Shown: piece after piece, positions 40,576 to 46,043 of the stretch
How positions within the stretch are numbered: the stretch's first letter is position 1
How the letters are laid out: every line of letters starts with the position of its first letter
Origin: Clavibacter sp. VKM Ac-2873
Lineage (GTDB): Bacteria > Actinomycetota > Actinomycetes > Actinomycetales > Microbacteriaceae
NCBI RefSeq assembly: GCF_015351075.1
Contig: NZ_JADKRS010000001.1
Location: forward strand, 806,001 to 870,000
Length of the DNA stretch: 64,000 nucleotides
Reading direction: 5' to 3'
Made by a program: the position numbers and the translations under genes
Notes under the pieces: model-generated
Told to the model about the DNA's origin: nothing
What the model saw: only the letters and a program-made list of their open reading frames with translations
The model's database searches: none

Positions 40576-42471
40576 TCAGACGGCGACGGCGACCGAGGAC
40601 GGCGTCGTCCCGGGCACGAGTCCGAGGCTCCTCGCACGGCGGGAGCGCCGGGTCACGAGGTACGACACCGCGAGGCTCAGCAGCAGGAACAGCGCGAGCA
40701 CGCCGGCCGCGCCCCACGCGACGCCCGGGGCACCGCCCGCGATGATCGCCTGCATGCCCGAGGCCGCGTACGTGAGCGGCAGGAACGGGCTGATCGCCTG
40801 GAACGGCCCGGCCATGAGCTGCAGCGGGATCACCCCGCCCATCGCTGCCGCCTGGATGGCCAGGAGGATGAGCGACACCACGAGCCCGGCGCGGCCGAAC
40901 GCCTGCCGGAGCAGGTGGTGGATCGCCGTGAAGGCCGCCGCCGTGACGACGGCGAACCCGAGCGTGGCCGGCAGCAGCGCGAGGGACAGGCCGAGGGCCG
41001 CGTGCACGAGCGCGACGAGCAGCACGACCTGGGCGAGCGCGATGAGGCCGGCGCGCGCGAGCACGCGGCCCATCACGCGGCCGGTCGCGGCCGAGGAGGC
41101 GAGGAGCCGGCGAGCGGCGGGGCGCAGCACGAGGAACGTCGCGAACGCGCCGAGCCACAGGCCGATGGGCACGAAGATCGCGGCGATGGCGTCACCCGGG
41201 CTGCCGATCTCGTTCTCGCGCTCGACCGTGAGGCCGACCGGATCCGCGACGACGCCCGACGCCTGGGACGCCTGGTCGGCGTCGAGCGAGGGGATCTGCT
41301 CGGCGCCCTGCGTGAGGCCGGTGCCGAGGTCGGTCGCGCCGGACGACAGCGACGTGGCGCCGGTCGCGAGGTCGCCCGCGCCCGTCGCCGCGGACGTCGT
41401 GCCGGTGCGCAGCTGACCGAGGCCGTCGCTCAGCTGGCGGGCGCCGGAGACGAGCGCCGGCCCGTTGGCCGCGAGCTGCGACGCACCGGACGCGCTCTGC
41501 CCGATGCCCTGCTGCACGCCCTGGATCCCGGCGGCCGTCTGCGACGCGAGCGCCTGCCCCTGCGCGGCGTACTGGTCGAGCCCCTGCTCGAGCGGCTCGA
41601 GCTGGGCCGCGATGGGCGCGCTCTGCGGGTTCGCGGCGAGCTGCTGCCGGAGCCCCGCCACCTGCGCCGCGATGGTCCCGGCACCGCCCGCGTACTGCCC
41701 GACGCCGTCGGAGACCCGCGACAGCCCCGCGGCCCCGGTCTGCAGGCGGTCGAGTCCGGAGGAGAGCTGCGAGACGCCGCCCGTGTACGTGCCGAGGCCG
41801 TCCGCGAGCTTCGACGCGCCCTGCTGGGACTGCCCGACGCCGTCGCCGAGCCGCGTGATCCCGTCGCCGAGCGTCGTCGCCCCCGAGGAGAGCTGCGTGG
41901 CCCCGTCGGCCAGCTTGTCGGCCCCCGCGCCCGCGTCCGTGAGCGACCCCTTGAGGCCGCCGAAGGTCGTGTAGATGCCGGAGACGAACTGCGAGGTGAT
42001 GGCGTTGCCGAACACGCTCGTCATGCCGACGCCGACGGCCTGGGTGGCCGCCCCCGTCAGGTAGCCGTGGGCGTCGTCCGTCTTCACGCTGATCTGCGCG
42101 CGCTGCGGGGCGTCCGTCGACAGCGACACGATCGAGGAGGAGAAGTCCTTCGGCACCGTGAGCACCGCGTAGACCTCGCCGTCGTCGAGCATCCTCTGGG
42201 CCTCGTCGGCGTTCGTGATGGTCCAGTCGAAGGCCTGGTTGTCGTCCGAGGTCAGCTGGGTGACGAGCAGGCGGCCGGCGAGCACGGGCGACTCGGTGCC
42301 GTCCTGGGCCTTCTGCTGCACGATCTCGTCCTGGTTGACGATGGCCGCCGGCACGCGCTCGACGCCCTTCGCGACGTCCGAGAGCGAGCCGATGAAGAGG
42401 CCGGCGACCGCGAGGGGCACGATCGCGACGAGGGCGACGGCGAGGCGTCGGCGTACGGAGCGGGTGGTCAT
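40576..42471 (-). CDS. YhgE/Pip-type membrane protein
   Basis: A 631-residue protein. One N-terminal transmembrane helix (about residues 11-30) is followed by a long extracytoplasmic region opening with VPAAIVNQDE, then a run of heptad-like repeats (KLADGATQLSSGATTLGDGI and similar, about residues 180-410) that should form a coiled stalk, then five or six C-terminal helices. This is the layout of YhgE/Pip proteins, which include phage receptors and are often paired with type VII secretion or MMPL exporters. Its ATG overlaps the MMPL stop by four bases. Confidence 0.88.
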   Translation of the reverse strand: MTTRSVRRRLAVALVAIVPLAVAGLFIGSLSDVAKGVERVPAAIVNQDEIVQQKAQDGTESPVLAGRLLVTQLTSDDNQAFDWTITNADEAQRMLDDGEVYAVLTVPKDFSSSIVSLSTDAPQRAQISVKTDDAHGYLTGAATQAVGVGMTSVFGNAITSQFVSGIYTTFGGLKGSLTDAGAGADKLADGATQLSSGATTLGDGITRLGDGVGQSQQGASKLADGLGTYTGGVSQLSSGLDRLQTGAAGLSRVSDGVGQYAGGAGTIAAQVAGLRQQLAANPQSAPIAAQLEPLEQGLDQYAAQGQALASQTAAGIQGVQQGIGQSASGASQLAANGPALVSGARQLSDGLGQLRTGTTSAATGAGDLATGATSLSSGATDLGTGLTQGAEQIPSLDADQASQASGVVADPVGLTVERENEIGSPGDAIAAIFVPIGLWLGAFATFLVLRPAARRLLASSAATGRVMGRVLARAGLIALAQVVLLVALVHAALGLSLALLPATLGFAVVTAAAFTAIHHLLRQAFGRAGLVVSLILLAIQAAAMGGVIPLQLMAGPFQAISPFLPLTYAASGMQAIIAGGAPGVAWGAAGVLALFLLLSLAVSYLVTRRSRRARSLGLVPGTTPSSVAVAV

Positions 42472-45404
42472 CGGCGGGTCTCCTTGCCGGTCGTGACGGG
42501 CTGGTCGATGTCGGGGCGCTCGACGACGGCGGGTGCGTCGTCGGCGGCGAGGCGGAGGCGCACGGTCGGCCTCCCCGGGAGGCCGTGGTCGTCCGGGAAC
42601 CACGGCGCGCCCACGAGGACGGTCGTGCTCTCGTGGACGAGCACGAGCAGGGCCGCGAGGAACGCGCGCTCGGCGGCGGCGTCCGGGAACGGATCCACCA
42701 CGTCGAGCACGAGCACGGGCGCGCGTCCCGCGGCGGCGACGGCCGTCAGCGCGATCGCGCGCTCGAGCGGCAGGAGCGACCCCACCGGATCGTCGGCGCC
42801 GATGGGCCGGGCGCCCGCCGCCTCCGCGGCCCGGTCGATGCGGTCGAGCCACTCCTCCTGCCGGGCGCGGGCACCGCGGCGGCGGCCCATCGGCTCGGAC
42901 AGGTCGATGCGCTCGGCGAGGAGGTCCCCCACGGTCAGCCCGGAGTCCACCCGGTCGACGCGGCCGAGGTCGGCCATCGCGACGCTCGTGAGCACGCGGC
43001 CGGACTCGGAGGCGAGCGGGTGGCCGGCGACGTGCGCGCGGCCGGACAGCGGCGCGAGCCGGGCCCCGAGCGTGGCGCCGAGGAGGCGCCGGTCGGCGAC
43101 GTCGCCCTCGACGAGCACGAGGGATCCGGCCGGGGCGCTGAGGTCGACGGGCGCGAGACGGCGGCCCGGCACGCCCGCCACGAGCCGCTCCGCCGCGACG
43201 GCGGCGCCCGACGCGCGGGCCCAGTCGACGTCGTCCTGGTGCTCGCGGAGGCCCTCGCCCTCGATGTCGACGTCCGGGAGGATGCGGTCGAGCCAGCGCG
43301 GGATCCACCAGGCGCGCTTCCCGAGGAGCGCCATGGCGGCGGGCACCAGGGTCATGCGCACGAGGAAGGCGTCGAAGAAGATGCCGACCGCGAGCCCGAG
43401 GGCGATGGTCTTGATGACGCCGGCGCCCTCCGGCACGAACGCCGCGAAGACGAAGAACATGATGAGCGCGGCGGCCGTCACGACGCGCGCGGCGCCCGAG
43501 AAGCCCGTGACGATGGCGCGCCTCGCGTCGCCGTGGTGCACGAAGTCCTCGCGCATCCCGGAGACGAGGAACACCTCGTAGTCCATGGCGAGCCCGAAGA
43601 GGATCGCCATGAGCAGGATCGGCATGAAGCTGAGGATGGGGCCCGGCGTCACGCCGAGCGCGTCCGCGAAGAGGCCCTGCTGGAAGATCAGCACCACGGT
43701 GCCGAACGAGACGACGACGCTCAGCAGGAAGCCGACCGCGGCCTTCACGGGCACGAAGATCGACCGGAACACGATCATCAGCAGGATGATCGACAGCCCC
43801 ACCACCACGATCCCGAACGGCACGAGCGCCTGGTCGAGCCGCTGCGAGATGTCGTTCTGCACGGCCGTGGTGCCCGTGACGGACACGCGCGTGTCGTAGC
43901 GGTCCCGGAGGCCGGGCGCGAGGTCGCGGATGGACTGCATGAGCGCCGTCGTCTCCGCCGACTCGGGCGGGCTGTCCGGCACGACCTGGATGATCGCGGT
44001 GTCGACGGACGGGTTCGGCGTGCCGGTGCCCACGAACGCCACGTCGTCGAGGCCGCGGATCTCGTCGCCGATCTTCCCGAGCACCCCGATCGGGTCGGTG
44101 GTCTGCGTGATGTCGACGAGCACGACGAGCGGTCCGTTGTGACCCGGCCCGAAGGCGTCGGAGACGGTGTCGTACGCGACGCGGCTGGTGGATCCGGCGG
44201 GCGAGGTCGCCCCGCTCGGCAGCCCCAGCTGCAGCTGCGACGCGGGCACGGCGAGGAGGCCGGCGATGCCGATGACGATCACGACGGGGATGATCGGCAC
44301 CTTCGTGACGATCGCCACCCAGCGCGCGCCGAGGGTGCGCTGCGTCCCCTCCGCCTGGGCCTTCGCGCGGCGGGCGGCGCGTGAGCCCTCCTTCGGCCGG
44401 AGCCGCTCGCCCGCGAGGCCGAGCATGGCCGGCAGCAGCGTCGTCGCGACGCCCATGGCCAGCAGCACCGCGAACGCCGCGCCGAGCCCCATCACGGTGA
44501 GGAACGGGATCTGCACCACGAGCAGGCCCAGCAGCGCGATGATCACCGTCACGCCCGCGAAGATCACGGCGCTGCCGGCCGTCGCCACGGCGGTCGCCGC
44601 CGACCGCTCGACGGGCATCCCGTTGGCGAGCTGCGTGCGGTGCCGCATGAGGATGAAGAGGGCGTAGTCGATTCCGACGGCCAGGCCGATCATCACGGCC
44701 AGCAGCGGCGAGGCGCTCGACACCGTGACGAACTTCGAGGCGGCGAGCAGCGCGCCCGCGGACGCCGCGACGCCGACCAGCGCGCCGACGAGCGGCAGCC
44801 CCGCCGCGAGCATCGACCCGAAGGTGAGCACGAGCACAAGTCCCGCGAACAGCACGCCGAACGCCTCCGTCACGGTGACGCCGTAGTGGATGTCCTGGAA
44901 GAGCTGGCCGCCGAACGACACCGTGAGGCCCGCGTCGGTCGCCGCCTGCGCGGACGCCTTCAGGGCGTCGAGCGTCGCGGTGGTCACCTGGTCGCTCTGC
45001 CCGGCGAACTGCACCGTCGTGATCGCCACGGTGCCGTCGTCGGAGACCGCGTCGGTCGCGTACTCGGAGAACGGGGAGAGCGCGGTGGTGATGCCGGGGA
45101 CCTCGCCCGCGGCCGTCGCGACCGCCTCGATGGCCGCCTTCGGGGCGTCGTCGGTGACCTTCTCGCCCGCGGGCGCCTCCGTCACGATCTGGGCGCTCGC
45201 GCCCGCGGCCTGCGGGAACACGGCGGCCAGCCGGTCGATGGCCTCCTGCGACTCGGTGCCGGGGATCGAGAACGACTCCTGGGTCTTCCCGCCGAGCGCG
45301 AGGCCGCCGCCCAGGAGGATGCCGAGGACGAGGATCCACGCGGCGATGACGCGCCACGGGTGGAGGAACGAGATCCGGCCGAGCCGGTACAGAAGCGTGG
45401 CCAT
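42468..45404 (-). CDS. MMPL (RND) exporter with degenerate ABC-ATPase-like C-terminal domain
   Basis: A 978-residue protein. Residues 1 to about 700 form an MMPL transporter with 11-12 helices (GRISFLHPWRVIAAWIL; AVMIGLAVGIDYALFILMRHR; AMDYEVFLVSGMREDFVH). About 260 C-terminal residues follow that are not part of the family. They read like an ABC ATPase: a VEGDVADRRLLGATLGARL stretch in place of Walker A but lacking GxxGxGKST, an LLPLERAIALTAVAAAG stretch in place of the signature, a Walker B-like APVLVLDVVDPF near residue 900, and TTVLVGAPW in place of the H-loop. ATP hydrolysis seems lost. The ATG at 45404 has AGGAGA upstream. Confidence 0.88.
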   Translation of the reverse strand: MATLLYRLGRISFLHPWRVIAAWILVLGILLGGGLALGGKTQESFSIPGTESQEAIDRLAAVFPQAAGASAQIVTEAPAGEKVTDDAPKAAIEAVATAAGEVPGITTALSPFSEYATDAVSDDGTVAITTVQFAGQSDQVTTATLDALKASAQAATDAGLTVSFGGQLFQDIHYGVTVTEAFGVLFAGLVLVLTFGSMLAAGLPLVGALVGVAASAGALLAASKFVTVSSASPLLAVMIGLAVGIDYALFILMRHRTQLANGMPVERSAATAVATAGSAVIFAGVTVIIALLGLLVVQIPFLTVMGLGAAFAVLLAMGVATTLLPAMLGLAGERLRPKEGSRAARRAKAQAEGTQRTLGARWVAIVTKVPIIPVVIVIGIAGLLAVPASQLQLGLPSGATSPAGSTSRVAYDTVSDAFGPGHNGPLVVLVDITQTTDPIGVLGKIGDEIRGLDDVAFVGTGTPNPSVDTAIIQVVPDSPPESAETTALMQSIRDLAPGLRDRYDTRVSVTGTTAVQNDISQRLDQALVPFGIVVVGLSIILLMIVFRSIFVPVKAAVGFLLSVVVSFGTVVLIFQQGLFADALGVTPGPILSFMPILLMAILFGLAMDYEVFLVSGMREDFVHHGDARRAIVTGFSGAARVVTAAALIMFFVFAAFVPEGAGVIKTIALGLAVGIFFDAFLVRMTLVPAAMALLGKRAWWIPRWLDRILPDVDIEGEGLREHQDDVDWARASGAAVAAERLVAGVPGRRLAPVDLSAPAGSLVLVEGDVADRRLLGATLGARLAPLSGRAHVAGHPLASESGRVLTSVAMADLGRVDRVDSGLTVGDLLAERIDLSEPMGRRRGARARQEEWLDRIDRAAEAAGARPIGADDPVGSLLPLERAIALTAVAAAGRAPVLVLDVVDPFPDAAAERAFLAALLVLVHESTTVLVGAPWFPDDHGLPGRPTVRLRLAADDAPAVVERPDIDQPVTTGKETRR

Positions 45405-45464: not shown

Positions 45465-46043
45465 TCAGGCGGAGCGGGTGCCGAGGGGGGCGAGGAGCTC
45501 CCCCACGACCACGACGAGAGCGGCCCTGATCTCGTCGTCGGGCAGCGGTTCGTTGGTGGACCAGTCGTCGCTCGCGGCGAGGATGTACGCCGCGCCGCCG
45601 AGCGCCACGCCGAAGCGCAGCTGGTCGAGCGTGCTGTCGAGCGCGCCGGCGGTCTCGCCGAGCGCGCGCACGAGGTCGTTGGCGCGCTCGATCACGGCGA
45701 GGTGCCCGAGCGAGCGGCCCTGCGTGATGAAGAGGGCCACCTCGTGCCGGTGCAGCAGGAGGAAGTCGATGAAGCGCTCGACGAACTGGCGCCGGGCGTC
45801 GTCGTCGCCGCGGATGGAGTCGGCGCGCTCGATGACCTCGGCGAGCGCGTCGATCGTCGGCTCGAGCAGGGCGTCCAGCAGCGCCTCCTTGGAGGCGAAG
45901 TGGTACAGCACGCTCGACTTGGAGTAGCCCGCCTCGTCCGCGATCTGCTGGAGCGACGTGGCCTGGAATCCGTCGCGGGCAAAGCGCGCCGCCGCGATGG
46001 TGCGCAGCTCGTCGCCGGCGGAGGCGCGGGGGGTTCGGGTCAC
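45465..46043 (-). CDS. TetR family regulator of the MMPL operon
   Basis: A 192-residue regulator. The HTH helices are RTIAAARFARDGFQATSLQQIADEAG and YSKSSVLYHFASKEALLDAL (about residues 15-60). It reads into the MMPL and YhgE/Pip genes with a 60-base gap. Its GTG start at 46043 is followed upstream by two copies of CGATCGGTCAG, so it probably represses its own operon. Ligand unknown. Confidence 0.87.
   Translation of the reverse strand: MTRTPRASAGDELRTIAAARFARDGFQATSLQQIADEAGYSKSSVLYHFASKEALLDALLEPTIDALAEVIERADSIRGDDDARRQFVERFIDFLLLHRHEVALFITQGRSLGHLAVIERANDLVRALGETAGALDSTLDQLRFGVALGGAAYILAASDDWSTNEPLPDDEIRAALVVVVGELLAPLGTRSA

Follow-up and report, generated by a model that had tools for sequence, protein, structure and literature searches.

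What use has a proton-driven pump for the fold of an ATPase? Resistance-nodulation-division (RND) pumps are powered by protons, ATP-binding cassette (ABC) exporters by ATP, and they are regarded as separate superfamilies. The question is raised by a stretch of 64,000 nucleotides from Clavibacter sp. VKM Ac-2873 (contig NZ_JADKRS010000001.1, positions 806,001 to 870,000), hereafter the window, in which a minus-strand open reading frame (ORF) at 42468..45404 encodes a 978-amino-acid (aa) MMPL/RND-type protein. The original prediction, made from the sequence alone, had read the last 260 or so residues of this protein as an inactive ABC-ATPase-like domain that might dock to the product of the adjoining YhgE/Pip gene. 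Here we describe the predicted fold of this domain, its lost motifs and its gene neighborhood, and we lean toward the reading that it is a docking and coupling module, a dead nucleotide-binding domain (NBD) that occupies the place of an ATPase beneath YhgE and links YhgE to the proton-driven MMPL pump.

Routine annotation overlooks the domain, because Pfam finds only MMPL in the 978-aa protein and nothing in its last 264 aa, single-sequence searches of the domain against NCBIfam and the PDB return no NBD match, and Pfam ABC_tran matches just 5 of 40 fused members, with an E value of 0.014 at best. With a profile of 40 homologous C-termini (alignment A1), hmmsearch of the PDB reached EcfA at an E value of 1.7e-8, the best 60 of 294 matches all being ABC proteins, and hhalign against six canonical ABC ATPases gave an E value of 5.4e-12 and a probability of 97.5 over columns 22-229. 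The AlphaFold2 model of residues 715-978 (264 aa) has a mean predicted local distance difference test (pLDDT) score of 90.7 and a predicted template modeling (pTM) score of 0.86. Foldseek searches of the PDB with this model gave a best E value of 2.1e-11, and the 50 matches listed were all ABC proteins; in VIA the model aligned to FtsE (6z4w) with a Z score of 19.1 and a root mean square deviation (rmsd) of 2.8 Å over 205 residues. Since the profile matches, the model and the fold searches agree on an ABC NBD, a chance likeness is excluded, and we are confident that the modeled residues contain an ABC NBD fold. The structure prediction and fold search that the original prediction had called for thus bear out its ABC-like reading of the C terminus, and no unrelated fold emerged. 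Its placement of the domain at 42468..43230 stands only in part: the domain is real, but position 43230 falls inside a linker helix, and the folded part lies at about 42540-43208 (minus strand, residues 733-955), as located by the AlphaFold2 model, fold searches and profile homology.

Motifs were counted in 164 non-redundant domains from fetched loci (109 fused, 50 standalone and 5 canonical), of which four were dropped, namely L105, which is cut by the end of its locus, L123, which is in a wrong frame, L159, which is broken in frame, and L097, a doubtful standalone ORF; this left 106 fused and 49 standalone domains. At the Walker A place (residues 767-773, 43086..43106, minus strand, from alignment to P-loop-bearing fused relatives) the window protein carries GDVADRR in place of GxxGxGK[ST]; the P-loop is shortened by one residue and no longer has its last Gly, and Arg772 stands at the Lys position. 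That position is Arg in 37 of the 38 rows of the conservation alignment. Because 70 of the 72 long fused forms without a P-loop carry Arg there, as do 17 of the 28 short forms without one, the Lys has been swapped for a conserved Arg and not randomly scattered. It had been claimed that the Walker A lysine is gone; the Lys is indeed absent, but it is not simply lost, the conserved Arg occupying its place. A P-loop ending in GK[ST] was found in 6 of 106 fused domains, all six outside Microbacteriaceae. The place of the LSGGQ signature (residues 877-883, 42756..42776, minus strand) reads LLPLERA, often L-P-Q-L-E-R-A in relatives, and an LSGG-like signature occurs in none of the 106 fused and none of the 49 standalone domains. 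The H-loop place (residues 931-936, 42597..42614, minus strand, in the hhalign register) reads VGAPWF and has no His. The Walker B strand VLVLDVVDPF (residues 897-906, 42687..42716, minus strand) keeps Asp901, followed by Val, so that the catalytic Glu is absent; the Asp is kept in 95 of 106 fused domains, and Glu follows it in none. These observations agree with the original prediction on the signature, the H-loop and the Walker B-like strand, and they indicate that the domain almost certainly has no ATPase activity, as judged from its motifs.

The domain was matched in all 18 genomes of the genus, in one of them (G004) only up to the contig end, and comparison with named relatives identifies this genus as Clavibacter, with 98% to Clavibacter sp. 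VKM Ac-2872. A single-sequence search at an E value of 1e-3 found matches in 135 of 299 genomes of the family Microbacteriaceae, many of the weaker ones in reading frames 230-540 aa long, a size that would fit standalone proteins. The profile search, at an E value of 1.7e-29 or better, matched 118 of the 299, most in frames of about 940-1360 aa, the MMPL part having been checked in a portion of them. Among the sequences aligned, the fusion and its motif losses are conserved in Microbacteriaceae, no active fused ATPase was seen in this family, and the domain is neither absent nor random in homologues; together with the fold, this upholds the pseudo-ATPase reading. Other families of the order carry a short fused form in which the helical subdomain, including the signature, is deleted (L135-L147), and short forms account for 29 of the 106 fused rows. 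The beta core is kept in the short fused forms (L135-L147, L160-L162, L169, L173, L174 and L176), and a YhgE neighbor was seen in nearly all of them. Fusions with an intact P-loop occur in three other families, in the long forms L193 (GPPGTGKT), L194, L201, L202 and L203 and in the short form L195. Since these fused relatives retain the P-loop, the dead state is derived.

These variants bear on the possibility that the domain is a ligand sensor, one that has given up ATP hydrolysis but would still use Arg772 and Asp901 to bind a nucleotide or some other ligand and thereby gate the pump. The near-constant Arg of the long forms, the widely kept Walker B Asp and the P-loop-bearing relatives in three other families speak for such a sensor. 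However, the P-loop is one residue short and lacks its last Gly, the short forms have no signature region, and 11 of the 28 P-loop-less short forms lack the Arg as well, and we regard a ligand sensor as unlikely.

A tree was built from the 164 rows less 8 that were partial or doubtful and 12 thinned Clavibacter rows, which left 144. In the FastTree topology, with just five canonical ABC proteins as outgroup, the 90 fused rows used group together (support 0.952) within the YhgE-linked proteins, a clade of 116 (support 0.984) that is placed apart from the canonical ABC proteins. Of the six fusions with a P-loop, the five long ones are the sister group of the remaining 85 fused rows (support 0.93), and the sixth falls among the short forms. 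IQ-TREE recovers the same fused clade; the support values quoted are those of FastTree. If regain is excluded, this topology suggests that after one fusion the P-loop was lost at least two times and the helical subdomain was deleted at least two times, with support of 0.58-0.79 at some inner nodes.

Repeated loss of this kind would be expected of a decaying relic, that is, of an ABC ATPase that became useless after its fusion to a pump and has been tolerated since. Two further observations point the same way: the domain is split over two frames in 2 of 18 genus genomes (G002, L017/L021; G007, L018/L020), and among six Clavibacter sequences (15 pairs) its mean rate of nonsynonymous substitution (dN) is 0.041, versus 0.021 in the MMPL core. 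In the same set, however, the ratio of nonsynonymous to synonymous rates (dN/dS) was 0.134 for the domain and 0.099 for the core, beside 1.12 for the adjoining C-terminal tail (ratio of means). This tail (residues 956-978, 42471..42539, minus strand, pLDDT mostly below 50), the last 23 residues after the folded part, evolves without visible constraint beside a constrained domain, and the difference speaks against a relic. So do the alignable domains in loci from 40 genera, three of these being short forms, and the position-specific conservation of domain residues Arg58, Q77, P84-S85-E86 and E117-R118. The fusion is, judging from these comparisons, old and constrained, and a relic seems quite improbable. 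The MMPL core is broken in a third genus genome (G014, L012), and the breaks in G002, G007 and G014 may be assembly errors or a sign of a dispensable gene. In a C. michiganensis record (L159) the domain likewise lies in two frames; this record may be of the same genome as G002 or G007.

The fusion gene ends in an ATGA overlap of 4 bases (42468..42471, minus strand), in which its stop codon meets the start of yhgE, a gene at 40576..42471 (minus strand) for a 631-aa YhgE/Pip protein with an exporter-like membrane domain and a long helical region with heptad repeats. This protein scores over the cut-offs of NCBIfam TIGR03061 and TIGR03062 and carries TIGR03057 repeats; it matches Pfam ABC2_membrane_3 at an E value of 5.7e-17 and is without an NBD. 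In VIA its structural model (pLDDT 81.4) aligned to ABCG5/ABCG8 with a Z score of 19.4 and an rmsd of 3.6 Å over 222 residues, and the 50 VIA matches listed were all ABCG, ABCA, ABCH or Pdr/Cdr exporters. The membrane part of YhgE is thus predicted to have the fold of an ABCG-type (type V) exporter. ABCG exporters have their coupling helix between transmembrane helices TM2 and TM3; in the YhgE model the TM2-TM3 loop contains a short helix at 454-458, and L457, S459 and then R465 are nearly invariant. The MmpL5 complex, which was the top Foldseek match of YhgE, was given no weight (TM score 0.19, rmsd 18.9 Å). EsaA was absent among the fold matches listed for YhgE, which is uninformative.

The pairing of the domain with YhgE extends well beyond the window. 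By script, YhgE is the next gene in 104 of the 106 non-redundant fused genes; in one exception (L145) the contig ends, and for the other (L191) a longer stretch (L197) has a YhgE match to about 2 kb past the MMPL gene. All 49 standalone relatives also have YhgE next, in a sample fetched by similarity to the domain. YhgE was found beside none of 14 MMPL genes that lack the domain (13 from class loci, within about 1.4 kb, and a paralogue from the window's own genome within 10 kb; four Clavibacter fragments were left out of this control) and beside none of the 5 canonical ABC genes fetched as weak matches. In hhalign, the domain matches the YhgE-linked neighbors with a probability of 99.7 and an E value of 3.5e-26, compared with 5.4e-12 for the canonical ABC ATPases. 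The window's fusion gene shares its strand with yhgE and immediately precedes it, the arrangement that marks the YhgE-linked ABC-like family.

Because the standalone set had been fetched by domain similarity, a second survey was begun from YhgE. TIGR03061 matched in 40 of the 148 class genomes and 46 of the 60 family genomes searched, and the 59 highest-scoring loci were chosen regardless of their neighbors; only two of these are MMPL fusions. An ABC-like ORF of the YhgE-linked family lies directly upstream on the same strand in 55 of the 59 loci, and a full-sensitivity search adds L279 and L295, giving 57 of 59. The exceptions are L296, with no ABC-like ORF, and L298, with a TetR-like ORF; L297, one of the 57, scores higher with a canonical ABC profile. 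The signature pattern [LYF]SGG[QM] matched in none of the upstream ORFs of this set. A P-loop with Lys was found in 5 upstream ORFs and one with Arg in 20 (21 with L247, added by eye), and the rest have neither; this classification used a text pattern, which overlooked a GSGRT loop at least once (L247) and may include chance matches. As more than half of these ORFs have no P-loop, its loss is common among standalone partners too and not peculiar to the fusion. The second YhgE/Pip gene of the window's own genome (L237/L253) is preceded by an ABC-like ORF without a P-loop (E value 3e-10) and, by eye, by a TetR-like ORF. Standalone proteins of large-genome actinobacteria (L213, L223-L227, L229-L233, L235 and L236) carry GPSGSGRT, with Arg for the Walker A Lys. 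A candidate second copy of the domain in the window's own genome was rejected, the weak match (E value 0.114) lying over other ORFs that are amidotransferase-like by eye, with no ABC gene there.

Evolutionary distances were compared across 66 loci. The distances of the domain and of YhgE correlate beyond what the MMPL core explains (partial rho 0.356), a value that none of 2,000 label permutations reached, in a test that ignores relatedness. Core and domain distances correlate with a rho of 0.830, and a conserved linker helix ties the domain to the core, as might be expected if the domain regulated or oligomerized the MMPL core itself and its link to YhgE were merely historical. In the loci examined, though, the domain occurs without an MMPL protein yet almost always beside YhgE, and such an autoregulatory or oligomerization role is in our view rather unlikely.

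We therefore return to the docking and coupling module. The domain comes from signature-less ABC-like proteins that are regular neighbors and probable partners of YhgE/Pip, and in the window's operon this partner has been joined to an MMPL pump. With its place at the NBD position, facing the cytoplasmic loop between TM2 and TM3 of YhgE, the dead NBD would connect YhgE, long helical arm included, with the proton-driven pump. Export would then draw its energy from the proton gradient via the MMPL protein, with YhgE serving as extruder, gate or wall-spanning adaptor, and the cargo might, at a guess, be a lipid or another amphiphile. Docking to YhgE/Pip had been put forward in the original prediction, and the context lends it indirect support, namely an ABCG-type fold without an NBD, nearest relatives that lie beside YhgE, and no YhgE beside the control MMPL genes; the contact itself we infer, and we consider physical docking probable. 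Mechanical coupling to proton flow is possible, at somewhat less than an even chance. We also suggest, tentatively, a hybrid transporter in which an ABC-exporter-type YhgE/Pip has had its ATPase replaced by an RND pump, with the dead NBD as a mechanical clutch. YhgE/Pip would, in Actinomycetes, be the membrane half of an unrecognized ABC-like exporter family, whose ATPase partners would have given up the ABC signature and also, in varying measure, catalysis (P-loop Lys, P-loop Arg, no P-loop, no helical subdomain).

Several observations weigh against this proposal. The helical subdomain, which is deleted in the short forms, normally contributes to the site where the coupling helix is seated. 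The pTM of the YhgE model is low, at 0.57, and Foldseek searches with it were weak, the best ABC exporter having an E value of 2.9e-4. Among the products of the likely operon this domain alone is NBD-like, and it lacks the ATPase motifs; an NBD encoded elsewhere could serve YhgE. ABCG exporters are dimers and MmpL pumps are monomers or trimers, stoichiometries that do not plainly fit. The partial rho between core and YhgE given the domain, 0.491, is higher than that between domain and YhgE given the core, and YhgE may therefore have an equally close tie to the MMPL core. The breaks in genus genomes described above count here as well. Some published expression data bear on the cargo and may speak for the proposal, if the MMPL protein concerned carries the fused domain. 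In Saccharopolyspora hirsuta with cholesterol, a YhgE gene was up 3.82-fold and an MMPL gene with a neighboring number 3.33-fold, and the authors placed the YhgE gene under export of lipid components (PMC9782250).

How does the window protein compare with known systems? Its MMPL/RND core (residues 1-714, 43263..45404, minus strand) contains two MMPL stretches in one chain (Pfam PF03176, E value 1.3e-85), as in exporters of the MmpL3, MmpL5 and ActII-3 type, and extends to a D-V-D-I-E-G-E motif (711-717) that has a similar form in ordinary MMPL proteins. It also shares with these exporters the two Asp-Tyr pairs (residues 246-247 and 608-609), both of which were seen in all 66 fused homologues examined; such pairs, in TM4 and TM10, form the proton relay, with a role as in MmpL3. 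What sets the window protein apart is its ABC-fold tail: the cytoplasmic tails of known MmpL proteins are, to our knowledge, not ABC folds, and the 14 MMPL proteins without the domain stop 19-56 aa after the core. With the ABC NBDs (FtsE, EcfA/CbiO and those of ABCA and ABCG proteins) the domain shares its fold and a homologous sequence profile, but it lacks the P-loop, LSGGQ, catalytic Glu and H-loop His and is fused to an RND pump. Its closest relatives are the standalone YhgE-linked ABC-like proteins, for which we found no name. They too are encoded directly upstream of YhgE and lack LSGG at the signature place (49 of 49), but they are separate genes, and all 49 retrieved by similarity keep a loop ending in G[KR][ST]. 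The partner gene in the window matches both YhgE/Pip models and has the heptad repeats; in the published papers found, YhgE/Pip and EsaA are linked to neither an ABC-like partner nor a fused MMPL protein. In heterodimeric ABC exporters such as TAP and TmrAB, an NBD fold with a degenerate site is kept for function and one site stays active. The likeness is that an NBD fold is kept and catalysis lost; here there is no catalytic NBD in the three genes of the likely operon.

In a literature search that left most subscription journals and preprints outside its reach, we found no description of an MMPL-ABC fusion, in keeping with the original prediction, or of a YhgE-ABC partnership. MMPL pumps themselves are known; this is one with an architecture for which no description was found. 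Finding a dead ABC domain in conserved fusion with an RND pump, next to an ABC-type permease that lacks an ATPase, suggests that the motor of one superfamily can be lent to the other. The poorly understood YhgE/Pip proteins gain a concrete hypothesis, namely that they are membrane domains of exporters and have dedicated NBD partners, most of them degenerate, and the series from intact P-loop to full loss provides a natural experiment in which ATPase chemistry is dropped and a docking fold kept.

The remaining features of the locus are as follows. Upstream of the MMPL gene by 60 bases and on the same strand lies a gene for a TetR-type regulator (45465..46043, minus strand; Pfam PF00440, E value 2.3e-13), likely the first of a three-gene operon of TetR, MMPL fusion and yhgE. 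The linker helix between core and domain (residues 715-732, 43209..43262, minus strand; E-G-E-x-L-x-x-H ... W-A) corresponds to helix 2-18 of the AlphaFold2 model, and its E1, G2, L5, H8 and W14 are among the best conserved positions of the 40-row alignment A1. A further stretch, after the second beta strand (43005-43034, domain residues 77-86), has Q77 in 32 of 38 rows and P84, S85 and E86 in 35, 32 and 27 of 38, respectively; the window protein has His at position 77 and Ala at position 84.
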